A stretch of DNA of 64,000 bases, taken from positions 544,765 through 608,764 of the forward strand of contig JAGTXK010000087.1 in assembly GCA_019096195.1 (NCBI GenBank), read 5' to 3'. A program made the position numbers and the translations under genes. The notes beneath the pieces were generated by a model. The model had not been told where the DNA came from and did not search any database. It was given only the letters and a program-made list of their open reading frames with translations. Every line of letters begins with the position of its first letter. The stretch's first letter is position 1. Origin of the DNA: Boletus sp. NGJ. Lineage: Eukaryota; Basidiomycota; Agaricomycetes; Boletales; Boletaceae. This document shows, piece after piece, positions 894-39,288 of the stretch.

Positions 894-3800
894 ATGTCAG
901 CGCATGCGATAGATGTAAGTGCACTCCAGAGTGCTCAGCGTCGCGCTTATAGGAGCTTGTGTAGTACAGCAGAAGTACACGCGCAGTGTGCAAAGGGCCC
1001 GCACCGTGCACGGGTGCTTCAATCCCCGTAGGCACTCTGAGGTACGGCCAAATCGTCAAAGGTGAATTTGGTGAAACCGTCTCCTGGCGGCATTGGTGAG
1101 CATGTCGTCAACTCGGCAAAGTCCTGTGAAAGAAGCTGAAACGATCGGCGTCATTGGAACAGGGGTTGCGTCACACCTGACATCTTGCGCGCGCTTGCCG
1201 TCACCAACTTGAACAGTGTCACTGGATTCAGTGGCATCAGGTGCGCCATCATTTTTTTTTCAGATGTGGGATAGTGGTGAATATTCGCACAGATACGGGG
1301 ACCAGCAAAAGGTCAGGTGCGCTATTGCGGCCCAACGCATAGATCCTACAGACATCCCTGCGAGTGCGAAAATAGTCGCCCCTCCAGCTATACCTCCTGT
1401 GATGCTGTCTGGTCCTTCTGTTCCCGGGCCGTCCAACGGTGCATTGGCCGGACAGAAAAGAAGATACCAATTTGATGTCGCCGAGACCTCTCGGTCGCTC
1501 ACTCAGCTGAGTATTCCAAACGTGACCGCGACACAAGGCGCACGCTGTTCAGTTGGCGACGAAGACGACGAGGCCATGCTCATGGAACCAGAACCAGCCG
1601 ATGAGCTCTATTGTGTCATGAACACTAGCATAGTGGGTGTACAGTACTACATGGGTACGTACTTTGTCGCATTGAGTCAGGTTTCGTCGTGCTTACCCGA
1701 TATGTAGGTCTTGTTTCGCCCGGAGAACAAGTCAGTCTGGTCAGAGAGCCGCACAATCCATATGACAGGTAAGATATAAGATGACATTTTCTCTGTCATT
1801 CTGCTCAATGGAATTGAAAGGAATGCGATCCAAGTAAAGAACATTGGCGGGGCTCAAGTGGGACACATCCCAAGAAATGTCGCGTCCAAGCTAGCCCCAA
1901 TTCTCGATCAGAGGCTGGTCACGGTAGAAGGTGTCATGCACGAGGGAAACCGTAAAGTTCTTTCCATACATTTTGAGTCCTAGATTGACTGTTTTTTTTT
2001 CTAGTGAGCGGCTTCAATTATTCATTATCTATGTAAGCAACATCCAGTCTCATTGGTTCCGTCCTTACCGGCACAAATGTTAGGTCGTTGAACATCTTTG
2101 GACCATCTGACAAACGAGACATGCTAGAGCCAATGCTTATTTGGGCTACCCCTCGGCAAAGGGGTTTCCCACAACGGGCAAGAGGTAGTATTCCAGGGAC
2201 GTCATCTGCAGTTGCCGCAGCTGCCACTTCTGCTGGTGGTGGAGCGTTTCCTTCTGCATACGCTTCTGCGCTCGCAGCAACAATGGGGATGGCTGGCCCC
2301 AGCCAAGCACGTGGGATGACAAGCGCGCAGAGTGAAGCACAGCAAGAGGCAATCAGGAAGCAGAACGAAGCATTCGTAAGGGCTGCTGAGCTTAAGGAAA
2401 TGTTGAGCGGCCTCGAGAGAGTTGATGACGAAGGCCGGCGTACCTCATTGCTTGATACCCTTTGCTCAACGGATGACATCTTGAAACTCCCCGTACATGC
2501 CAATCCACCAGGCATTGCTAGCGGGGAATTGGTTGTGGATTTGTTAAAACATCAGGTAAAACCTTCATTCTGTCGTCGCAGCTGCACACTCACATGCGTA
2601 TAAATCTTAGAGTCAAGCCCTTCAGTGGTGCATTGGCCGTGAGTACCCCGAGTTGCCCATCAAGGAGTCGGACAGCCCGGTCCAATTCTGGCAATATAGG
2701 AAGGCGGGTAACAAGGTATGTTGTCATGATTGACGAGCAGGTGTCAAACTTATAGACTGATTGTCGTCAGCCATACTATTTCAATCGTCGGTCCTATTTG
2801 GTTGATATCTGGTGTAGTGGTTGACTATCCTCGTTGCAGTCGCAACCAAGAGTCCGCAAGACATCGGGACACCTCCGGCGCTTGGCCGAGGTGCCTTGGT
2901 AGCCGATAGCATGGGTTTGGTATGTAGGACAGTGAAGAAGGAAAGCGGTAAATAACAGCTTTTCTAGGGTAAAACGCTCACGATGATTTCCCTTGTCCTT
3001 GCGACGAAGAACGATGTTCCTAAGAAATTCTGCAACAGTACCCTCATCGGTGCGCAACACCACGACGATGTATAATGCCATCCATCTCATCCCCTTTGTT
3101 GATCACAGTTGTCCCGCTCTCTGTAATCTCGAATTGGGAAAAACAGATTGACGAGCACTGCGTCAGAGGCGCCTTGTCCGCATGTGTTTACTACGGTGCC
3201 ACACGCAACATGACACCTCAGCAACTGATGCAATATGATGTAGTGATCACCACTTACCAGGTAGTTTCAGGCGATGCCGATTCCAGTACCGTCACACAGC
3301 ATGGCATTGAGGGGGGAGGACCTGCAAAGAAGAAGAAAAAGAGCGGGAAGGGATTATTCGGTGTGAAGTGGAAGGTACGCATGCGGCGATTTGATGAGCA
3401 TTTCTGGCAAGCTAAAATAACAGATGGTTCTCAGAGGATTATCCTAGACGAAGGCCACAACATCAGGAATCCCAGGACGAAGATGGCCATGGCAGTGTGT
3501 ATGCTTACTGCTGAAAGGCGATGGGTACTTTCTGGAACTCCTGTCGTGAGTGATAGACTACTTGTCCGTCCCGCACCTAAGCGTCCCTCCATAGATCAAC
3601 TCTCCCAGGGTTAGCCACATTGTTTGACTTTGACTTGTTTCTGTCACTGATTTCAACAGGATCTCGGTTCTATGCTTACCTTCCTTCAAATTTGCCACCC
3701 ATTGGACAATGAGGATTTCTTCAAACGTCTGGTCCTACGTCCCCTGAAACAAGGAGATCCCGCTGGTGCAGAATTACTTCGTGTAGGTTTGTTCCACCAG

Positions 3801-6105
3801 CTAGTGGTCGCTCTGACCCTCTGCTAGGCCTTGATGAGCCACATTTGCATTCGGAGAACGAAGGAGGTATGTTTTTGACTGACGCACCGCGGTACCTTCA
3901 GTCCTGACACTGCACCAAAGATGCAAGATAGTGAGGGAAACTCCCTTGTACCTCTCCCACCAGTGAAATCCCTCTGTCTGCCGTTCCCTTCATCCACTCA
4001 CTCGTGATAATAGGTCGACATCACTTTAGTCCCCGTGACACTTAATGATGAGGCACGAGTAAGTGTTGCACCAGCTGTGATGTGCCAATCCTGATTGCAA
4101 TTTTCAGACACTTTATGATGCTGTGGAACTTCTTTCCCGGCAGCGAGTCGAAAGCTTAATGAATCAAGCCGGAGGGATGAACTCTATTGTTGGTGTCGCC
4201 TTGAATCTGGCCATTTTCTGTGCTTATATGTAGATATATATATAGGTGACTACTAACGTCCTGAGCATGCTTACCCGTCTGCGTCAGATTGTTCTCCATC
4301 CAGGATTAGTCCCAGCTAACTACTTGGATCAACTTCGGGTGAACGAGGACATCAATTCTACCTGCGGCGGTGTCGTACAAATCACACCCGAGCTAAAAGT
4401 CAAGTTGGAGTCGATTATTCTCCAAGCGATCGAGGACAACGAAGAATGTCCTGTTTGTTTCAATGTGATGACGGAACCTAGGATTACGTCGTGCACCCAC
4501 GTCTTCTGCTTGGCTTGGTACGTGCCGGTTTATTTGTTGGCATTTTATTTCAGCTCACGATACTTAGTATATCGGAGGTGATCGCAAGGGATCCTAAGTG
4601 TCCTATGGTATGGTATTTGTTGTCCACTGCGTCAACCACATCACCCATTCTCTTGCAGGATCGCCGGCCTCTTACGATGCAAGCTTTAGTAGCGCCGCCA
4701 CCTCCTACGGACCTTACGCAAGCTCCTGTAGAACAAGACACTAATCAAAGTGACCTATGTACTGGATCGTCTGCCAAGATCGGTCAACTCATCCATCTTC
4801 TGAAACTGATCCCTAACGACTCAAAAAGTTTGGTTTTCTCTCAGTTTACTTCTTTCTTGGACAAGGTAATTGTATTTTACGACTATGCTCGTATGTTTGC
4901 ACTGACATGTCGGATAGATTGGCGAGGCACTAGAGGAACATGGGCAAGTCCGCCAGTTGAATAATCTCGGGTGTTGTGCTGAATGTGCCCGCAGGATTCC
5001 ATATGTGCGGTTTGACGGAAAGTTGTCCGCAAGAAAAAGACAGGAGGTGTTAGAGCGGTTCTCCATTCCCCTTGACCCTGATGAATCCCCAGCTCCCGGA
5101 GAACCCCTTCTAACTGCCCGCCTGCGTCAAACTCAAACACGAATCACAGTCGAGAATGACGAGAATGCCACCGATGGCAATGACTCGGACTTTGTCGTTG
5201 GAAATGACACTGACGACGACGACGACTTTGATGAAGACATCTCGACCCGTGTACAGAAGAGCAAGGCAAAGGAGAGCAGGAATAAAGGAAAGGGCAAGGC
5301 GAAAGCAATTCCAGCTGTGAAACAGGTTTTCGACGGCTCTGCGTTCTGCGGCGTGAACCCCAAGGTCATGTTGATTTCGCTCAAGGCGGGTGCGTTGGGT
5401 CTCAATCTCACGGTTGCAAACCACGTCTTTTTGTGAGTTTTGTTTCGCTTTGCTGCGTACATTGAGATGTTCATGCATTTCACCAGGATGGATCCGTAAG
5501 TACCCATATGATTAATCGTTTCATATATTGATTGGTGATTGTTGGCCTCCGTCCCGTGCTCAGATGGTGGCAGGTAATGTGACCAGTCAGCTCGTGGCGT
5601 CTTCTCTGCTGACAATTCCATAGGAGGGTATCGAAAGTCAGGCCATTGATAGATGCAATCGGTAAGCAGGGTGGCCTTTCTCGTTACGCTGACAGACCCT
5701 GACGTTCCTGTAGCATCGGACAGAAGAAACCCGTTCACGTATACCAACTGATCGCCGAAAATACTGTCGAATCCAAGGCAAGTCACACACTCGATCGTCG
5801 CAGAATGACTTTTGCAATGTCGACCGTTCGTCCCAGGTGATTGAAATTCAAGAGAGGAAGAAGCGCCTGATCCAGCATGTATGTAGTCATTCCACATCGT
5901 CGGATAGGTAGGTCAAGCCCGACACAACTTCACAGGTATTCTCTGGCATCAAACGTACGGAGACGCAAAGAGAGAAGAGGGAGGCAAGGCTCCAAGGTGA
6001 GTTGTGGCACTCTCGTTTTCCTGAAAGGGTTGCTCAATTGAGTTTGCTTTAGATCTTGTAGCACTGTTTGGGATCCGCGACCAAAGACGCCCGCGCGAGA
6101 AATGA
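894..6105 (+). CDS. RAD5/HLTF-type SNF2 helicase with HIRAN, split SNF2, RING and helicase-C domains
   Basis: This is a predicted nuclear DNA translocase and ubiquitin ligase of post-replication repair (RAD5/HLTF class). After a low-complexity N-terminus, a HIRAN domain spans about 1620-2060 (VGVQYYMG, REPHNPYDRNAIQVKN, GHIPR). SNF2 motif I is ADSMGLGKTLTM near 2900-2980. The Walker B box is DEGH rather than DEAH (ILDEGHNIRNP near 3450), as is common in this subfamily, followed by VLSGTP. A RING lies near 4447-4610 (CPVC, CTHVFC, LAC, KCPM). Helicase-C motifs are LVFSQFTSFLDK, VRFDGKLSARKRQ, SLKAGALGLNLT and DRCNRIGQ, with an acidic insert near 5150-5250. The CDS ends at a TGA at 6103-6105. 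There are many introns. The first exon is uncertain: ATG at 894 followed by a GTAAGT at 915 joins in frame to the T-tract acceptor before 1264; otherwise translation starts at the ATG at 1264. Confidence 0.87.
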
Positions 6106-6374
6106 TGCGTAGAGTATACTTGCTTTTATAGTACATACAGTATACAGCTTTGTCAAAGTAATTCAACCTATATTGCCCAATCATTGGAATGGGGAGTCCG
6201 AACATGGCGGTACAGGTCCTTTCGAGAAATAAAAACTGTACAGTTTCGGCAATGACCTGGGAGGCGTCAAACCTTAATTGTTGTAGTGCTAGGCGACAAT
6301 AGAGACAAACAACGAGCTCGTCGCCGAGGCAGAATCCACGCTTGCACTTCAAGACCTCAAGAAACATTTCAAAA

Positions 6375-7270
6375 ATGGCTGCGGTACAAACTCTTCCCAA
6401 GGATATCTCGAAACTTGGCCAGGAAATAAAACTCTTCGGCAAATGGGACACACAGGAGTACGCGTCCATATGCTCAAAGAGGAACTTGACATTGATCATA
6501 ACGATAGTGTTGAGGTCAAGGACATCTCGTTGACTGATTACATCCAGGTCCGCCATGCAGTCTACCTCCCCCACACTGCTGGCCGTTATGCAAAGAAGCA
6601 GTTCAAGAAGGCCCAAATGCCCATCGTCGAGCGTCTTGTTGACAGGTATGCCATCATCGGAACAGAGAGGGTAGATCTGAGACATTTGACTTGGCTACCA
6701 GTCTCATGATGAAAGGTCGTAACAACGGCAAGAAGCTCCTTGCCGTCCGCATCGTCGCACACGCGTTCGAGATCATTCACCTTCTCACCGACCAGAACCC
6801 AATCCAGGTTCGTACGCTTCGGGATGGGACGTCTCAAGGCTGGTTTTTAATGCTCTGTGGGGTGCATAGGTACTCGTCGATGCGATCGTCAACACGGGTC
6901 CTCGAGAAGACTCGACGCGTATCGGTTCGCAGGGTACTGTCCGTCGTCAGGCCGTCGATGTGTCCCCTCTGCGGAGAGTTAACCAGGCGATTTCCCTTCT
7001 TACCATTGGCGTAAGTAGCGCGATGGGTTCGAAGCAGACCTTGTTCTCACAGTAAATTTGACACAGACCCGCGAGTCAGCATTCCGCAACGTGAAGTCTA
7101 TCGCCGAGTGCCTCGCCGATGAACTCATCAACGCCGCCAAGGGTTCATCGAACTCGTATGCTATCAAGGTCAGATGCAGTCTGTCATCTGCGATCGCTCG
7201 TGCACTGACGCGACCTTTTTGTAACCAGAAAAAGGACGAGCTCGAACGTGTCGCCAAGTCCAACCGGTGA
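6375..7270 (+). CDS. RPS5: 40S ribosomal protein S5 (uS7)
   Basis: This is a core small-subunit protein of the mRNA exit/E-site region. My exons are 6375-6457, 6508-6645, 6702-6807, 6870-7010, 7067-7168 and 7229-7270, which sum to 612 nt (203 residues), the usual eukaryotic length. Recognisable segments are [95 protein letters not shown] and the terminal [14 protein letters not shown]. All five introns are 50-62 bp with GT-AG ends. The first intron (6458-6507) is needed to reach the family sequence; reading through it gives a false second frame. A truncated copy retaining introns lies at 9701-10175. Confidence 0.97.
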
Positions 7271-7845
7271 AAAAAAGAAACGGCCTGCGTCTGCAGTGCA
7301 TATATGCAGAGGACTTGGGTTCGCGGTACAAGTATGGCTGCACTATACGGGCTTTTTTTAACTACATCCTTGTTTTCTTCCACTCTGCATCTGCGCCAAG
7401 CGCTTTAGCCCTCATGCTTTTATCCATGTATCCTCTATGACACTCCTGCATGCGAGTATGCAACACGTTCTTACCTGGGCTACTTTCGACTGTGCTAGTT
7501 GTTACTTCTTCAATACCACGATATTCACCAGTAACCCGCTGGGCGGATATCCGGTGTTCGGACTCGGACGCGGCGTAGAATGCGCCGAGAACCTGATTTC
7601 TGGTATTTCCCGAGTCTTCCCTGGAGCTAAGTTGGTTCACAACAAGGCGTAAAGCGAAATGAGGGAGCGCGACAATTTCAAGCAAGGTATGCATCTTGGA
7701 TTCTTCCGATTTGATGCTGAGCGCTGAGCCAAGATAAACCCCATGAACACTTGACAATGTCCAATGACCAGAGTTAGATTGTTGTCACACAATCATTACT
7801 ACTGAGTTGGAGAATGCTCGTGGGCAGGTCTTGACTCGGATCCTT

Positions 7846-8160
7846 CCGCTCGTTCTCGACGGTCTACGCCCTTCACATCGCCTTGGCCCCCTGGTGTTTC
7901 AGCCCGCGCATCTCTTGCGCCGGGCCCGGGCCTGGACGGTGTGGAGAAACACCGTTACAATTTGATAGCTAGGACGCTTCATCTCCAGAGATCCTGGAGC
8001 CTGACTCAGGATACTCGTCGGCCGCTCGTTCATGACGGTCTACGCCCTTCATGTCACCTTGGCCCCTTGGTGTTTCAGCCCGTGCATCTCTTGCGCCGAG
8101 TTCTGGACGATGTGGAGAAACACCGTTATCATTGCCAATTTGTTAGCTAGGATGTCTCAG
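7846..8160 (+). repeat. 176-bp tandem repeat upstream of phosphatase copy 1, recurring upstream of copy 2
   Basis: Two imperfect copies start at about 7846 and 8022. Shared blocks include CCGCTCGTTC, ACGGTCTACGCCCTTCA, TGGTGTTTCAGCCCG, CATCTCTTGCGCC and TGTGGAGAAACACCGTTA. Diverged versions of the same unit recur at about 10640-10740 and 10790-10920 upstream of the second phosphatase gene. The repeat therefore travels with the gene, and its position makes it a candidate promoter element. Confidence 0.75.
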
Positions 8161-8221
8161 CTCCGGAGTGCAATACAATGCCACTCTTGGATGCGTCGTT
8201 ACCGTGGGCGTAAAAACCGGG

Positions 8222-8228
8222 TATATAA
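8222..8228 (+). promoter_or_regulatory. Candidate TATA box of phosphatase/beta-trefoil copy 1
   Basis: TATATAA lies 66 bp before the ATG at 8294. The same box in the same context (ATATAACCCCTGCTTTCTGC) is kept upstream of copy 2 at 10980. Conservation in the paralog supports function. Confidence 0.6.
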
Positions 8229-8293
8229 CCCCTGCTTTCTGCAGGATTGTGCCCATTCATCCCTTCGATCAACCTCACATCGATCTCATCACT

Positions 8294-9609
8294 ATGGCAG
8301 CAGCAGCAGGATGGCAGCGGTTCATGCAAGTCACTACGTCTGTGCCCACCGGACACAAACTCTACCGTGCCTCCGCCCCCAACTACAACAACCAAGACAG
8401 CGATCAAAATCTCACTCAGGCAGCGGTCAACTTCCTCGTCAGCCAAGGGATCAACAGCATCATTAGTTATAATGAACACGAATACACGGCAGCAGAGAAG
8501 GCCAGATTGGCCAATGCGGTACCGCCAATCAAATACTTGCATCTCAGGCTCGGGGACTTCAAGCCGCCTACCCTCGCGCAGTTGAAGCAGGCGAACGACT
8601 TTTTCCTGGAGAACACGTCGACGCTGGTACACTGCGGCTATGGCATGGGTAGAACTGGGACGGGTGTCACCGGACTACAGATATACACCGTGCATGGCGC
8701 GAGCCTTCAGCCTTTGGCCGCGACGTGGACTCGAGGGCTTTACAGCAACCCGAGTGGAAACAACGTCGAAACACGGGAGCAGGTGTCCATTCTTGCTCAA
8801 CAGCGAAACATCTTTTTGCCGTATGTACTGTCTTTCGCCGACGGGGGGGCGAAGCTTATTTTTATTTATTTATTTTGCGATCTAATTTTGTTCGTAGTCG
8901 GGTCACAGGTATCCCCGCTGGCAATCCCAACCAGGCGTATGCAATCATCAACTTCGCGACTGGCTACTACCTGACGCTCTCGACTGACAAGCGTAGCGTC
9001 ATCTCCCTCTCTCCGGAGACGGTGGAGACTGCATCCACGATTGCACAAGCAGTAAGTCTAGAATGGTTTGTATATCTGAATCCCCAACGATGCTTATCGA
9101 CGTTAAAACTGTAGTACCAATGGGTGGTCACGAATACACAGGGCGACTATACGCTCTCGAACAAGACGACGCTCACCAGTTTCGCGCTAACCAAATCTGA
9201 AGGTGCCCTGGTGAACGATACAGTGACGTACGGTACCCAAGCACAGGGGAATATACTGTTCACGATCAAGGAAGTCACCTCGGGCGATAACGGCCGCTAC
9301 GTGTGAGTCCGCCTCGACATTGACCAAGATAATGCATGTTGAATGTTCGTAGTATCTCCCCCAAACCTAGTCCCGGCCTTGCAGTAGCGATCAATACGCC
9401 GAGCGACGATGTTGGTGCGGCTCAGCAGGTATGTAATTGGTGATGCTCGCAGAAGCTGAGACTCATAGACCATTGTCTGTATCTGGGCACAGATGCCTGC
9501 GCTGCTTGCAACCAACAATACGAGCAATAGCTTCGGGCTTTGGATTCTCTTGAGGTCTGACTTCAGGGTCACTGGACTTCTAGGAGGGACCGAATACGAG
9601 GCTGAGTGA
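8294..9609 (+). CDS. CX5R dual-specificity-type phosphatase fused to a beta-trefoil (ricin-B-like) domain, copy 1
   Basis: Exons 8294-8820, 8898-9051, 9115-9302, 9353-9428 and 9493-9609 give 353 residues in frame. Residues 1 to about 175 form a compact cysteine phosphatase. The signature HCGYGMGRTGTG places catalytic Cys114 and Arg120. Asp88 in LGDFKPP sits where the general acid of dual-specificity phosphatases is expected. From about residue 180 the sequence (NQAYAIINFATGYYLTLS, YQWVVTN, ISPKPSPGLAVAINTP) reads like a lectin-type beta-trefoil. No signal peptide is visible (it starts MAAAAGWQRF), so a cytosolic product is likely. It is the first of three copies in the window; copy 2 is intact and copy 3 is broken. 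The phosphatase call rests on the signature. The trefoil call is weaker and inferred from the repeating pattern. The substrate is unknown. Confidence 0.78.
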
Positions 9610-31338: not shown

Positions 31339-34300
31339 ATGTCGACCGGAAATATCCGAGAGAAATTCGGTCGTTTCAGGATTCTTATCGTCGGGCGGGC
31401 AAACGCAGGCAAGACGACCATTCTCCGGGGGATCTGTAACTCTACGGAAAACCCAGAGATCTACGACGGAGATGGAAACAAGGTATAATCCCGGTCGACA
31501 TATGAATGTCGTGCGTTATGCTAAACCGCACGACTAGATCGATCCGTCAGAAGTCGAGCCAACAAGGGAGGTGAGTAGTGTTGCACGTCAGGCTTTGACA
31601 CGATGCGCATTATAACCCTCATTAGCGCGGAAAGCACAACATCGAGAATGAACTAATTTTCCGCAGCAATGATAACTTTGTCTTTCATGATTCGTTAGGT
31701 TTCGAAGCTGGTCGCGAAGACGAATTCCTGAAAATGAAGGAATTTATTGCGGATCGCGCGAAGACCACTTTTCTCAAGAAACGCATTCACGCGATATGGT
31801 AACGGGCGAAGCTGTATTACAGAACATTAATCAATTTACACCCCCGGACAGGTACTGCATCCCAATGGATAAGCTTGATCGAGCAATCCAAACTGCGGAG
31901 GAAAAGTTCTTTCAAGAATTTGATCCTGGAAATGGTGAGCTGATCTTCGTCATGGTTTTCTCGAGCTCATGATTCGGTCAGTTCCTGTTGTAGTGTTGTT
32001 CACCAAATTTGATGCACTGCTCCCTGTAGCACTGGGGAAACTAGAACTCGCTGATCGACGACTACCATTACAGGAACGGTTGTCAAAGGCCGAGGTGCTC
32101 ATTGATGGGATTTTTAGTAGAGCTAATGCATGGGGACGTCTTTCTCAAATGAAACATGCCCCAAAGTTGTGTGTCCAAATTGGAGGTGTGTATCATGTAT
32201 TCTCATGCACATACTGGGTTATGCTCTCCCATACATTAGGCATGCATAAGTCCAATGAGGGATGCAAGAGTCTACTGGAAAACACTGCAAATGTCCTAGA
32301 TGAAAGAGCTTTGCAAATGCTGCTAGTTTCAGCCCAAGAAACGAACATAGGACTTTGTATCAAATATGCAGTCCAAGAGTAGGTCATTTATTCTGTATAC
32401 AAAAACATCTATCTTCGATAGCAGCCTAACACTTTCATTTGAATGAAGTTTGATATCTCGAGTAAATGAAGCTCGCAACTCTACACTTCCCATGAGTAAT
32501 ATGGACAAGATAAAACTGCATGAACTTGCATTTTGGTTCCCACATGTTCAGGTAAGGCACTATAATTTCCTAGTTGGTGTGCCCTTATTGTTGATCCTCC
32601 AATAATGATCATAGTTGGTAAGTTGTACATTCTTGCATGTTTGTGACAGTGATCATGTGTTAATGATCTCATGTTCATTCTTCATCCTGGTTTGGCAATC
32701 GTAGAGAGTGAGTTGTGCATTCTAGCATGTTGGTGACAATGATCATGCTAATGATTTTATGTTTATTCTTCATCCTGCTCTGGCAATTAGTGGGTGAGTT
32801 GTGCATTGTGGTATGTTGGTGACAATGATCATGCTGATGATCCCATGCCCATTTATCATCACACACTGGCAATCACAGGAAGTGAGTTATGCATTGTGGC
32901 ATGTTGGTGACAGGAGCCATGCTGATAGTACCATGTCCATTCTTCATGCTGTGCTGGCAATCATAGGGAGTGAGTTATGCATTGTAGCTGTTGGTGACAG
33001 TGATCATGCTGATGGTACCAAATTCATTCTTAGAAGGTGAGCTGTGTATTGTGGCATGTTGGTGACAGGGACCATGCTGATGGTCCCATGTCCATACTTC
33101 ATCCTGATCTGGCAATTGTAGGAGGTGAGTTAAACATTCTGGCATGTTGCTGCAGTGACCATGCTGATGATTTCATGTCCATTCTTCATCCTGCTAAATC
33201 ATAGGAGGTGAGTTCTGTGTTGTGGTCATGCTGATGAAAGTGATGATGCTGATGGTCCCCATGTCCATCCTTCATCCTGCTCTGGAAATCATAGAGAGTG
33301 AGTTGTTCATTTGTGGTGTGTTAGTGACAGTAATCATACTGATGGTCCCATGTCCATTCTTCATCCTGGCTTGGTAATTATGCTAGAGAGTGAGTTGTGC
33401 ATTGTGGTGTGTTGGTCCATAGTATTCATGCTGATGATTCCATGATCCATTTTCATCCTGTTCTGTCAATCATAGGAGGTAAGTTGTGCATTGTGGCATA
33501 TATAACAGTGATTATGCTGATAATCCCATGTCCATTTTTCATTTTCTCTGGCGATTATAGTGGGTGAGTTGTACATTGTGGCAAATTGGTAACAGTCATC
33601 ATATTGATGATCCCATGTCCATGCTTTATCCTGCTGTGACAATTATAGTGGGTGAGTTACACATTCTGTTGGTGTCAGTGATTGTTTTGATGGTCTCATA
33701 CCCATTTATTCTAGTTGGTGAGTTGTGCATTGTGGCATGCTGGTGACAGTGATGATGCTGATGATTCTATGACTTTCTTCATCCTGGTCTGGCAAATCAT
33801 AGAGAGTGGGTTGTGCATTGTGGCATGTTGACTATGACTATGCTGATGACCCCAAACCATTCTTTATTCTCTGGAAATCATAGGAGGCAAGTTGCATATT
33901 GGTGAAAGTAGTCATGCTGATATTCACATATCCATTCTTCACCCTTCTCTGACAATTGTAGTGGGTAAGTTGTGCATTGTCATATATTGGTGAAAGTGAT
34001 TATGTTGATAATCTCATGTGCTTGTCTTATCCTGCTCTGGCAATCATAGTGGGTGAGTTGTGCATTGTGACATGTTGGTGACAGTGATCATATTGATAAT
34101 TTCATTCTCAAATTTCATCCTACACTGGCATTCATAGTTGGTGAGTTATGCACTGTAACATCTTGATGACAGTGATCGTGCTGATGATCCCAAATTCATT
34201 CATTCTGCTCTGCCACTTGTAGGAGGTGAGTAGTGCATGGTGGTGTGTTTGATGACAGGAATCATGCTGATGGTCCAATGTCTAATCTTTATCTTACTCT

Positions 34301-37300
34301 GGCAATCAAAGGAGGTGAGTTGTGCATGGTGACATGTTGGTGACAGGGACCATGCTAATGTCTTATGGTCCCATATCCATTCTTTATTCTGTTCTGGCAA
34401 TCATAGTTTGTGAGTCACACATTGTGGCATGTTGGTGACAGTATTCATGCTGACAATCACATCTCCATTCATCCCACTTTGGGAATCATAGTGGGTGAGT
34501 TGTGTATTGTGGCATGTTGATGACAATGCTCATGTGTTTATGTTTATGATCCCATGCCCACTCTTCATCTTACTCTGACAATCACAGGAGGTGAGTTGTG
34601 CATTGTAACATTTTGGTAACAGTTATCATGGTGATAATTCCATTCAACTCTGCCCATTACAGGAGGTAAGTTGTGCATTGTGGCATGTTGGCCACAGTAA
34701 TCATACCAATGACTCCAAACCCATTCTATGTCCTATCTGGCAAGCATAGAGAGTGAGTTGTGTATTATGGCCAGTTGGTGACAGTGAACATGCTGATGAT
34801 GTCATGATTCTTCATCTATCTATGGCAATCATAGGAGGTAAGTTTTGTATTGTGGCATATCAGTCACAGTGATAATGCTAATGATAACATGTCCATTGTT
34901 CATTTTTCTCTGGAAATCATAGGAAGTGAGCTGTCTATTGTGGCATGTTGGTGACAGAAACCATGCTGATGATTCCATGTCCATTCTTCATCCTGCTCGG
35001 GAAATCATAGAGAGTGAGTTGTGCATTGTGATATGGCTGATTGTGATGATATTGACAATTTCAAATCATTCTTCATCCTGCTCTGGTAATCATAGTCAGT
35101 GAGTTGTGCATCATGCATGTTAATAACAGTGATGATGGATCTCATGTTCATCTTCCATTCTGGTCTGGCAATCATAGGAAGTGAGTTTTGCATTGTGGCA
35201 TGTTGATAACAGTGATAATAATCCATGTCCATTCTTTATCCTCTGGACATTTATAGGAGGCAAGTTGTATCTTGTGGCATATTGGTGACACTAGTCATGC
35301 TGATAGTTCCATGTCCATTCTTCATGCTATGCTGGCAATCACAGGGAGTGAGTTGTGCATTTGTGTCAGTGATCATTCTGATGACCCAGTGTCCATTTTT
35401 CATCCCACTCTCACAATCATAGGAGGTGAGTTATGCATTTTGGCATGTTTGTGACAGGGAACATGCTAATGGTCACATGTTCATTCTTCATTCTACTCTG
35501 GCATTCATAGTTTGTGAGTTGTGCATTGTGGCATGTTGGTGATAGTGATCATGCTAATGATTCCATGTCTATTCTTTGTCCTGGTCTGGCAATGATAGGA
35601 GGTAAATTGTATATTATAGCATGTTGGTGATGCTGATGATGCTGATGGTCCCATGTCCATTCCTTATCCTGCTCTGACAATTATAGTTTGTGAGTTGGGC
35701 ATTGTGACATGTTACTAACAGTGATGCTGATGATCATCTGTCCATTCTTTATCCTAATACTCTGACAAACATAGGAGGTAAGTTTTGCATTGCATTGTGG
35801 CATGTTGATGATACTAATCATGCTAATGGTCCCATGTTCATTATTTATCCCACTCTGGAAAACCACAGAGAGTGAGTTGTGCATTGTGGCATGTTGGTAA
35901 CACTGATGATGCTATTGATTCCCTGTCCATTCTTCATCTTGGGTGGGTAATAGGGGGTAAGTCATATATTGTGGCATGCTGGTTACAGTGATCATGGATC
36001 CCCTGTACATTCCATAGTTGGTGAGTTGAGTTGTGCATTCTGGCCTATTGGTGACAGTGATAATGCTGATGGTCACATTTTTATTCATTAATATACTCTC
36101 ACAATTACAGGCAGTAAGTTGCATTGTGATATGTTGTGACAGGGACCATACTGATGTCACTGGCATGTCCATTATTTTATCCTTCTCTGGCAATGATAGT
36201 TGGTGAGATATGCATTTGGGCTTGTTGGTGACAGTGATCATGCTAATGGTCCCATGTCCATTCTTTATCCTTCCCTGGCAATCACAGGGGGTAAGTTGTG
36301 CATTGTGGCATACTGGTAACAGGCATGCTGATGGTTTTATGTTCATTTTTCATGCTACTCTGGCAATTATAGAGAGTGAGTGGATTGTGGCATGTTGATG
36401 ATGGGAATCATGCTGATGATTCCAAATCTCTTTTTCATTCTGGTTTGGCAATCAGTCTGTGAGTTGCACTTTCATATGTAGTTTATATCATAATATGCAT
36501 GCTAACATATCTATTTTTATCTTTTATTTATTATTGATCAATAGCATGTAAGTTGTTGTTACCATTTTCTATGAGTTGCTGTTTAACTTTTTTCTTTTGA
36601 CTCTCATAGCTGGTATGTTTTGCAAATATACATTCTTTATTTGGCCTTAAATATTTTAATAGGATGTAAGTTTGCTATATGGTGTATATTTGATAATGAC
36701 TTATCTGTATTACAATCTTAGCAGGTGATATTTCAATTTTGCATCTAACAATATTCTATTTATTTATCAAATCTTAGGAGGTTGTTTTTGTGACAAACTA
36801 TTCCACCATTTATTGATTGTATGGTTTTATCTTATTCAGCTACTCAAGAACAAGCATGTATGTATTTTTTTCAACCCAATGTTTTCTACATTAATATTCA
36901 ATTAAATAGAGTCACCGGCGTGCAAGCTCAGCTCAGCTTTCCAAATCATCCAACTGGGTAAACCTATTACTATTTTGATTTTATGTGTAAACCTAATATT
37001 ATATGACTTTATTGCATCCAGCCACTCAACAACAAGCGTGTATGTATGCAATTATTTTTAAATTCAATGTTTACATTAATATTCTATTTAAATAGAGTCA
37101 GCGTCGTACAAGTGAAGTTCAGCTTCCCAAACCATCCACCTGGGTAAATCTACTTTCGTTTTCATTTTGATATATAAATCTAATATTGGCATAAATAAAA
37201 GGGAAAGTTTGCTACATGGACACAAATTCTTCAAGCTGCTGTTGGTATGTTGTAATTCCTTATCCCATATCTAGCAATAATACTATTAATTACCCATTAT

Positions 37301-37738
37301 ACAGATATAGTTCTAATATCAGAGCATTCTTTCTATCTTTCCCAGAGAAATGACTCTAGAGCATTCTCCACTGCTGCTAAGCTATACAAAGCATCCAATA
37401 TATCTGATATGGTTGGGAAGGCCTTGGAAGAAGTTGTCAAGCAATATGGCAAATTATCTGACAAGGAAAAAGTGGATATGGTATCAAATATCATTCTTCT
37501 GAATCACATAGGTAGTTTGATACATCCTCCAAGTTTCTATTTACTAATAAGTCAATTTTAGAAACTCCAGCATATACATAAAGACAATAGTGTTAGACTG
37601 GGTTACAACTCCAAGTCATTCTAATAGTGAAAATTGATTGCAGAACTGAAGCAAGATGATCTTGAAGGCAGAAGATTGTTGGAAACATATCAAGATTCCA
37701 GGTTGAAATTGTATCCAGTGACTGTCTATATATGGTGA
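31339..37738 (+). CDS. G-domain GTPase with a tail encoded through 51 predicted one-codon microexons
   Basis: Exons 31339-31482, 31538-31570, 31626-31798, 31852-31934, 31982-32185, 32240-32378 and 32449-32551 encode a 293-residue G domain in continuous phase. G1 is GRANAGKT (residues 19-26), G3 DSLG (81-84) and G4 TKFD (152-155). The last of these exons ends in phase 0 (WFPHVQ). Then follow 51 AG-NNN-GT microexons (32615-36780), then exons 36840-36857, 36910-36957, 37022-37039, 37096-37143, 37202-37244, probably 37305-37309, 37346-37511 and 37644-37738. These keep frame and end YPVTVYIW with a TGA at 37736. The full model has 66 exons and about 490 residues. The G domain suggests a fungal AIG1/dynamin-like small GTPase; the partner is unknown. 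The 5-nt exon at 37305 and its 36-bp intron are the weakest joints. The microexons are predicted, not proven; skipping all of them also stays in frame. Confidence 0.7.
32615..36780 (+). repeat. Tandem array of intron-like units separated by 51 AG-NNN-GT three-base exons
   Basis: Units average 83 bp (range 53-96). A typical unit starts GTGAGTTGTGCATTGTGGCA, has CATGCTGATGGTCCCATG in the middle and ends CTCTGGCAATCATAG. Exactly three bases then precede the next GTGAGT. Triplets start, for example, at 32615, 32705, 32791, 32879, 33034, 33649, 34407, 35011, 35775, 36111, 36456, 36663 and 36778. All 51 acceptors end in AG; 49 donors begin GT and two (33887, 35260) are GCAAGT, the usual GC-AG form. 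Triplets: GAG 14, AGA 8, TGG 6, TTG 5, GAA 3, TTT 3, GGA 2, GGG 2, and eight others once each; no stop. The last five introns (from 36548) are AT-rich and unlike the repeat, yet keep the three-base spacing. The structure is seen directly; splicing is inferred. Confidence 0.9.
36840..37201 (+). repeat. Tandem duplication of an 18-nt + 48-nt exon pair with its introns
   Basis: Exon pair 1 is 36840-36857 (LLKNKH) and 36910-36957 (SHRRASSAQLSKSSNW). Exon pair 2 is 37022-37039 (PLNNKR) and 37096-37143 (SQRRTSEVQLPKPSTW). The introns are alignable too (GTATGTAT... and GTAAA... types). All four exons are multiples of three in phase 0. The same growth mode, duplicating intron plus short exon, would explain the microexon array upstream. 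Confidence 0.85.
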
Positions 37739-39288
37739 AATGTATTCTAGACTGTATTGAATGAGCAGTCTATAAAAAATACATTCATGAACCCTAGTGA
37801 AGGATATTCTATCAATGTAAAATACTATCTAGACACCTAGAGCATGAATTTCCCAGGGCTGGAAGAGCAACCTGAAGCTTCAACATGAATAGTTCAGTGA
37901 TACCTTCCATATAAATTGCTTGATTATAGGGCCAGAAGCCAGGAGCCTTGAGAATGTTTTGTATTCCTGAAGCATTGATATCTACCATGTTCCACCTGCT
38001 AGCCTGTCAAGATGAGTTGCAGACAGGGGAGATGAACTTGTCTTCAAAATGTGAGGCAACATTAATGACATCATCATACATAGGAGATTCACTGGGAAAA
38101 ACCTATCAAATTGTACATAGAGGAAGCATCATGATGTAAAAAAAAACATGCTTTTACTCTTAGTGTAGGTCAAGTCCTCACCACAAAGGGTCTTCTGTTG
38201 TTGTTAGGTGGATTATATACAAATATTGGAGATGTTTGAAGACAAAGTGTTTCATCCATGCCTCCTTGAAATAGAATATTGATAATTCTATCTGAAAGGA
38301 ATGTCAGCCAAGCAAGTCCAATTTGCATTCAAAGTTTGTCACTATGTAAAAGGTGTATGTTCTTTCAAAATGCCAACCAGAGTATATTGGCAGAATCTAC
38401 TAATGCTGAACAATGATACTAGTGCAGTTCTTGCAGTGAAGTCCTTATCACAAACCTTTCAGATGCATTCACTTATCAAACTTTGTCAGTGAATTGGTAA
38501 AAAGTTGTTCTCAATCAAGTCAAACTAAATGCCTAAAGAATGTACCATGTTGGTCTTCACAAGGATAAATTCTACAGTATGCAACTTAACATATACTTGT
38601 TGATGTGACTCAGCTCTTAGACTGGCAATGGCATATAAATGATCCAACAATGTGTTATATGTTGCAACTTTTTTTCCACCATGTTAATGCTTACAACCCC
38701 TTATAACTGTCTGATAAGTCATGCTAACCCTATTTTGGCATTACAATGTTCATTATAAGTTCATTATCATGTCATTATAATATAAAAAGTTACCTAATTT
38801 ACTCGAAATTTCATCAGCAGACATTATAATAGGGTATGATCTTTTGGTAATGTATGGTAATTCATTAGTAGCTTAGCAAAAAAGTTCCGACAAAAAATAA
38901 TAGTACTCACATTTGATTGTCACAGTGGTGACTCAGCCCCATGTGGACAATAGCGTCAAGCACGAGAATACCCAACATCCGGGCCGACTGAAACTTCCTC
39001 CAAACTAGTGATCAGTTGAAGGTGGTTACTGCAGAGGATGCAGATGGGATGTGGCTCGACGTGACACCATCGAGAGGGAGTGGCAAGATATTAATTCGAA
39101 CGCTGCAGCGGTGACTCACCTCTGCTCTAGGAGGAGACATCGGCGAAGGTATAGCGTTGACGTGAGATGACAAGATTAAATAAAGGAGTGCTTGGGGTCC
39201 TTGCCATTTTGTACCAACACACATGTCGCGGCGGTTGCGGGATCAACCAATGCAGCACTGCATCACCACTGGCGGCGACGACTAAGTC
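37739..39288. other. AT-rich intergenic spacer
   Basis: 1.55 kb between the GTPase gene and GCN5. It is AT-rich up to about 38900, then switches to the GC content of the neighbouring housekeeping genes. Frames at 37948-38139 and 38301-38492 have no recognisable domain. No terminal repeats or integrase/reverse transcriptase motifs were found by eye. Confidence 0.5.

Follow-up and report, generated by a model that had tools for sequence, protein, structure and literature searches.

Long series of codon-sized exons have a printed precedent in the truffle Tuber melanosporum, in which an expanded family of NACHT-ankyrin (nank) genes is described, in one research paper, one genome survey and one review, as diversified by alternative splicing of 3-bp microexons (PMC3689799, PMC4986451, PMC10197012, which relay the original paper of Iotti et al. 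2012). One of these brief accounts puts the number of microexons at 'tens'. Isolated 3-nt microexons are on record, at least in outline, for Drosophila homothorax (PMC7392893) and RPS24 (PMC11162997), and the aphid bicycle and megacycle genes are summarized as very rich in microexons, of which megacycle has more than 100 (PMC9168663). Intron gain has been attributed to tandem duplication and to introner-like elements of fungi (PMC4974935, PMC4457414). Here, we describe a gene at 31339-37581 (+) of a 64,000-nucleotide stretch of the Boletus sp. NGJ genome (contig JAGTXK010000087.1; henceforth, the window), which encodes a GTP-binding protein and carries 51 consecutive candidate exons of three bases. 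A preliminary description of the locus knew of no parallel to such a run, a claim that the Tuber genes contradict. No Boletales or GTPase case was present among the literature titles listed, which include few subscription papers.

The array extends from 32552 to 36839 (+) and consists of 52 introns of 50-93 nt with 51 exons of 3 nt between them. All 51 AG-NNN-GT/GC sites previously proposed for this interval are present; start-to-start spacing is 53-96 nt, the triplet takes 16 values and none is a stop, each as originally stated. The phase 0 assigned to both flanking exons is borne out by the exon model, in which the gene is intact and a frame runs open through 7 + 51 + 7 exons. The frame is open both with and without the 51 codons. 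The earlier equation of array introns with ordinary ones holds in kind but not in size, as most array introns are longer than the remaining introns of the gene (47-70 nt). Sites were retrieved with a regular expression giving 53 raw rows, from which three overlapping matches (32574, 34775, 36377) were removed, and the last site, GAG at 36778-36780, was added by hand. Among the 52 donors, 41 read GTRAGT and two GCAAGT, while the last is GTTGTT; the acceptors are TAG (42), CAG (nine) and AAG (one). When both strands of the whole window were scanned for exon lengths k of 0-15, the chain at k = 3 reached 49 sites under a strict donor rule, and no chain longer than five was seen among those listed for k = 0-2 and 4-15.

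At least five gene copies besides that of the window are present in the genome searched (32.8 Mb, 141 contigs; the window is G000:C3:544765-608764), and four of these, one perhaps decayed, have the same build, with 25-38 one-codon exons each. Locus L022 on contig C107 has 28 intact sites and one broken site, and its last five codons are identical to those of the window, CAT CTG GAT CAG GAG. On contig C44, L059 has 38 sites and L060 has 25. The copy on contig C21 has ~27 sites 3' of an inserted retroelement, and its final acceptor appears damaged. The closing codons of all five arrays are CTG GAT and then either CAG or GAG. Two different intron repeats are involved: one of 88 bp in the window, and another of ~77 bp in L059, L060 and C21. 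In DNA searches, neither repeat retrieved the loci that carry the other. These searches placed each repeat at no fewer than three loci of the genome, all in this gene family, and the counts are lower bounds because only the best candidates were scored. Insertion of an introner-like element was considered as an origin and rejected, given that such elements are near-identical introns dispersed among many unrelated genes, whereas all loci scored for either repeat belong to this one family. Two loci on contig C22 with related G domains contain no chain of 3-nt exons longer than three.

A chain search that left exon length free (0-40 nt) returned a length of exactly 3 nt for 49 of 50 internal exons in the window, 26/28 in L022, 38/39 in L059, 23/25 in L060 and 25/27 in C21m, or 161/169 for the five loci together, compared to 36/1559 in random sequences. 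The latter, at most 40 in number, were generated by a first-order Markov model of the window array, and the splice-site weights were generic values. Across the 169 triplets of the five copies there is no stop, where 14.8 would be expected with the three positions independent; no P value is attached to this count because the triplets are related by descent and partly hand-edited. These results bear on recursive splicing, by which a single long intron would be removed stepwise at regenerated splice sites, leaving the triplets as by-products. The serial AG/GT sites are of the kind this would use, and in the first array intron of both L059 (position 2221) and L060 (2191) one AG is followed directly by GT (AG|GTAATT), resembling a recursive splice site. 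Recursive splice sites, however, leave 0 nt, whereas the spacing in the window is 3 nt at 51/51 sites; the only 0-nt exon in the window chain search, at 36725, results from an alternative reading of TAG-CAG-GT. As the codons moreover avoid stops and the tail codons recur among the paralogues, we consider recursive splicing the most improbable of the explanations weighed here.

An aspect overlooked in the preliminary description is the origin of the run. The first 46 one-codon exons lie at 32615-36458 (+), and ~45 units there, each an intron plus a codon, form one diverged 88-bp tandem repeat. The run thus owes its origin for the most part to tandem copying of an intron with its codon, and its regularity is partly a matter of descent. 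The last five one-codon exons (36545-36780, +; CAT 36545-36547, CTG 36610-36612, GAT 36663-36665, CAG 36722-36724 and GAG 36778-36780) have introns outside the repeat, and the pattern is therefore independent of it. Mean pairwise identity over 45 units is 0.722 (28% difference) and that of adjacent units is 0.725; this divergence, with neighbours no more alike than distant units, indicates that the array is old and has not been homogenized by conversion.

Units were compared in a wraparound alignment with equal match scores, in which splice bases were given no extra weight. Since C/G columns look, by eye, less kept than A/T columns in general, the test was confined to G columns. In the window array, the donor and acceptor G are kept in 87/89 cases versus 636/855 at 19 other G columns (one-sided P = 6e-9), and the two splice columns rank first. 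The corresponding counts are 44/46 versus 321/437 in L022, 46/46 versus 242/368 in L059, 20/23 versus 104/176 in L060 and 27/28 versus 150/224 in C21m. A minisatellite lying in one large intron, its AG-NNN-GT incidental to the 88-bp unit, would accommodate the single tandem repeat of ~45 units and the phase 0 of both flanks, which keeps the frame on skipping; the 4,288-nt intron would be removed whole or the region would have no working part. Yet a neutral minisatellite would show no constraint on particular columns, and the splice G columns are kept far above the others. The same rule is followed by the tail units, which do not belong to the repeat, and by the other repeat, that of L059, L060 and C21; the units are not homogenized, no triplet is a stop, and at 4,288 nt a single intron would exceed the length of the gene's other introns by a factor of 61 to 91. 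We therefore hold a minisatellite to be very unlikely.

A 5'-truncated copy offers a further comparison. L021, a stretch beginning ~20 kb before the first base of the window, contains this copy at G000:C3 ~529000-531760 (L021 ~4500-7260), ~13-16 kb before the window start, and no match to the first 57 residues was found in it. Four of its 23 sites are broken. In the window none of the 51 sites is (one-sided P = 0.008), and the window taken with L022, L059 and L060 has 1/143 broken (P = 0.0013). Over 750 bp of the N-terminal region, L021 and the window are 97.9% identical; their arrays match at only ~70-77%.

With full inclusion, the array of the window would encode a linker of 51 residues, LRWEGKEERREWWLREWWLEEFWEEREERSEEGEFEFERGLALGRSHLDQE, which starts LRWEGKEERREWW and ends SHLDQE. 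Twelve relatives sourced from the Joint Genome Institute (JGI) were examined, and five of them (P0002, P0004, P0030, P0043 and P0067) reach the C-terminal domain. These five come from contigs of 1.2-1.7 kb without introns, which are therefore likely to represent spliced RNA. P0030 carries WWSWEWWWDLDMELVDEHH where L022 has ...SHLDQE+LLDDRH and the window ...HLDQE+LLKNKH, and the L, D and E of its matching linker end are each coded by a 3-nt exon in the genome studied here. Similarly, P0043 carries RFEVFREFVFEFANLDR, which resembles both the F/E-rich codons found in L022 and the NLDQ with which L059 and C21 end (the L059 linker ends ...KNLDQ+LVFTFK). In all, the linkers of two of the five intron-free crossing relatives, P0030 and P0043, resemble the predicted ones and have LDxE or NLD at their end.

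Of 11 annotated bolete proteins examined, nine (P0003, P0005, P0006, P0007, P0021, P0029, P0033, P0046 and P0069) end at most ~45 residues past WFPH, and it is just past WFPH that the array would begin in these models; P0001 stops before the array point and P0121 starts after it. Gene finders that do not bridge such arrays would explain why nine of ten annotated bolete relatives (P0121 aside) end just past the array point. P0069, from Butyriboletus roseoflavus, matches the L059 exons at 96-98% in the three best pieces of more than 20 residues, with 42/43 residues at its end. The end of P0069 reads into the first array intron of L059 (L059 2065-2193), its last residues, VKFYTAIILKPKI, agreeing with the translated intron in 12/13 positions. 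From its similarity to L059, the species of the window is probably a Butyriboletus or close to that genus. Four Suillus proteins (P0093, P0094, P0099 and P0111) continue to the C-terminal domain. When the C-terminal regions of P0030 and P0002 served as queries for homologues, the only additions were P0121 and P0122, the latter apparently with introns kept, as judged by eye. The model of P0121 (Imleria badia) starts just 3' of the array point and appears to have two C-terminal domains in tandem; it may represent the latter half of a gene that annotation has divided in two.

Taken together, the genomic evidence makes it highly probable that the one-codon exons are real and code for a linker of variable length, the intervening sequences being working short introns that would be removed serially. 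The original interpretation as serial 3-nt exons is in this respect supported by the splice-base constraint, the paralogues with their two intron repeats and common tail codons, the decay in L021 and the intron-free linkers; what it lacked was the origin by tandem duplication. According to this explanation, a short intron plus one codon was copied in tandem many times within a protein-coding gene of a bolete, and each copy would still be a working intron, so that a presumed pre-mRNA would contain 52 short introns, adjacent ones being separated by a single codon. Under intron definition, the spliceosome would pair both ends of each such intron. Because a 3' site and the next 5' site lying 3 nt apart can hardly both be bound, introns would be removed one after another or in alternation, each removal lengthening the exon for the next donor. 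Consecutive removal of the two introns flanking a microexon has been reported for plants (PMC8831610). Full splicing would yield the 51-residue linker, probably disordered, between the G domain and a helical C-terminal domain. Every exon being one whole codon in phase 0, the gain, loss or skipping of a unit would alter linker length without a frame shift.

A number of observations weigh against the explanation by one-codon exons. GC takes the place of GT in two donors, and the last donor reads GTTGTT; wider intron limits shift the chain search slightly (window 48/50, L022 26/28, L059 38/39, L060 22/25); and the triplet stop counts ignore descent and include hand-edited chains. The blind alignment places nine gap bases at the window triplet, where 7.3 are expected by share, while the three gapped triplet places, read directly, are AG-N3-GT/GC. 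The truncated L021 keeps some splice-G excess (32/35 versus 261/336, P = 0.038), with its donor G ranked 11th. Among the JGI-sourced relatives, 7/12 stop or diverge at or before the array, and the linkers of P0002, P0004 and P0067 are of other sequence, with only P0030 and P0043 similar. The linkers of the latter two, known from intron-free sequences alone, have ~13-18 codons before the shared LD, versus 25-51 here.

These shorter linkers are also relevant to alternative splicing codon by codon, in which subsets of one-codon exons would be skipped in frame to give many linker variants, and which is compatible with the one-codon exons being real. Every exon is one phase-0 codon, the frame is open without the array as well, the arrays found here exceed the linkers of P0030 and P0043 in length, and alternative splicing features in the reports on the Tuber NACHT-ANK genes. 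On the other hand, the donors are strong and uniform (41/52 GTRAGT), which suits constant use, and the shorter linkers may simply reflect shorter arrays in other species. We regard such splicing as possible, though somewhat doubtful. More speculative still, and in our estimate rather unlikely, is the independent evolution of an array of one-codon cassettes in this fungal GTPase family, which has no relationship to the NLRs of truffles; tandem copying would set the genomic repertoire and in-frame skipping of single codons would generate many linker variants from one gene, possibly for recognizing changing partners.

The remainder of the gene is of ordinary construction. Seven exons (31339-31482, 31538-31570, 31626-31798, 31852-31934, 31982-32185, 32240-32378 and 32449-32551, +) make up the N-terminal part (31339-32551, +), a P-loop G domain with the motifs GRANAGKTT and TKFD that ends ...LAFWFPHVQ; this part is an open-frame model whose nearest proteins are from Boletales. 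The C-terminal part (36840-37581, +), which is helical in the model of the matching part of relative P0002, comprises exons 36840-36857 (18 nt), 36910-36957, 37022-37039 (18 nt), 37096-37143, 37202-37244, 37305-37511 and 37562-37581 (with the stop) on the same strand. Ordinary exon boundaries were placed by eye, guided by copy L022. The closest proteins to the gene are those of boletes (Imleria, Boletus). Against the Pfam family MMR_HSR1, the exon-1 piece of the window protein scores 21.2 bits (cut-off 21.9); P0002, P0004 and P0005 are above the cut-off and P0043 is slightly below. The Arf cut-off is also passed by P0002 and P0005, and scans of four relatives and of two pieces taken from the window protein gave no NACHT or ankyrin match above cut-off. 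The predicted structure of P0002 has a mean predicted local distance difference test (pLDDT) of 68 and a predicted template modeling (pTM) score of 0.53; its linker (residues 300-337), between the G domain and the helical C-terminal domain, has pLDDT < 50. Fold comparison of this model placed a bacterial dynamin-like protein first (E 1.8e-5, TM ≤ 0.32), along with many G-alpha chains, matches too weak (TM ≤ 0.32) for a closer family name, and a profile search of solved structures matched the P-loop end only.

Some further features of these loci deserve mention. The 18-nt and 48-nt exons 3' of the array are tandemly duplicated with their introns in the window (36840-36957 and 37022-37143), reading LLKNKH+SHRRASS... 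and PLNNKR+SQRRTSE..., and are single copy in L022. The G+C content drops to 0.34-0.36 at 36001-39000, from 0.40-0.42 at 32001-36000; elsewhere in the window it is 0.42-0.58. The insert of the C21 copy, which interrupts the first intron of its array, is retroelement-like (reverse complement of L062+L061, ~2265-9523), with direct terminal repeats that are 94% identical over a 368-column alignment.

If spliced as proposed, the array constitutes an extreme natural test of intron definition, with 52 successive introns, one codon between them, and adjacent splice sites presumably too close for simultaneous binding. It also illustrates a simple route to many introns, the tandem copying of an intron plus a codon with a built-in frame guard, which would apparently have been used in two distant fungal lineages and in two gene families. 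Arrays of codon-sized microexons as such are already known from Tuber; what is new is their presence in another gene family, that of a GTPase. As in homothorax and RPS24, going by what is described of them, a 3-nt exon lies between introns, but those genes have one or few and no run. The aphid genes, as summarized, belong to another gene family and kingdom. Their exons are longer than one codon. In common with tandem-duplication and introner cases, as these are outlined in print, the new introns are copies of existing sequence, although here the copies stand head to tail in one gene. Closest are the nank genes, likened here by descriptions rather than intron sequences: in both systems, members of an expanded family of fungal genes have tens of consecutive 3-nt exons, the bolete counts being 51 in the window and 25-38 in the four further copies. 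The truffle genes are of NLR type with alternative splicing reported, whereas the bolete gene, known here from genomic sequence, encodes a GTPase with a linker and has introns that are visibly tandem copies of one another.

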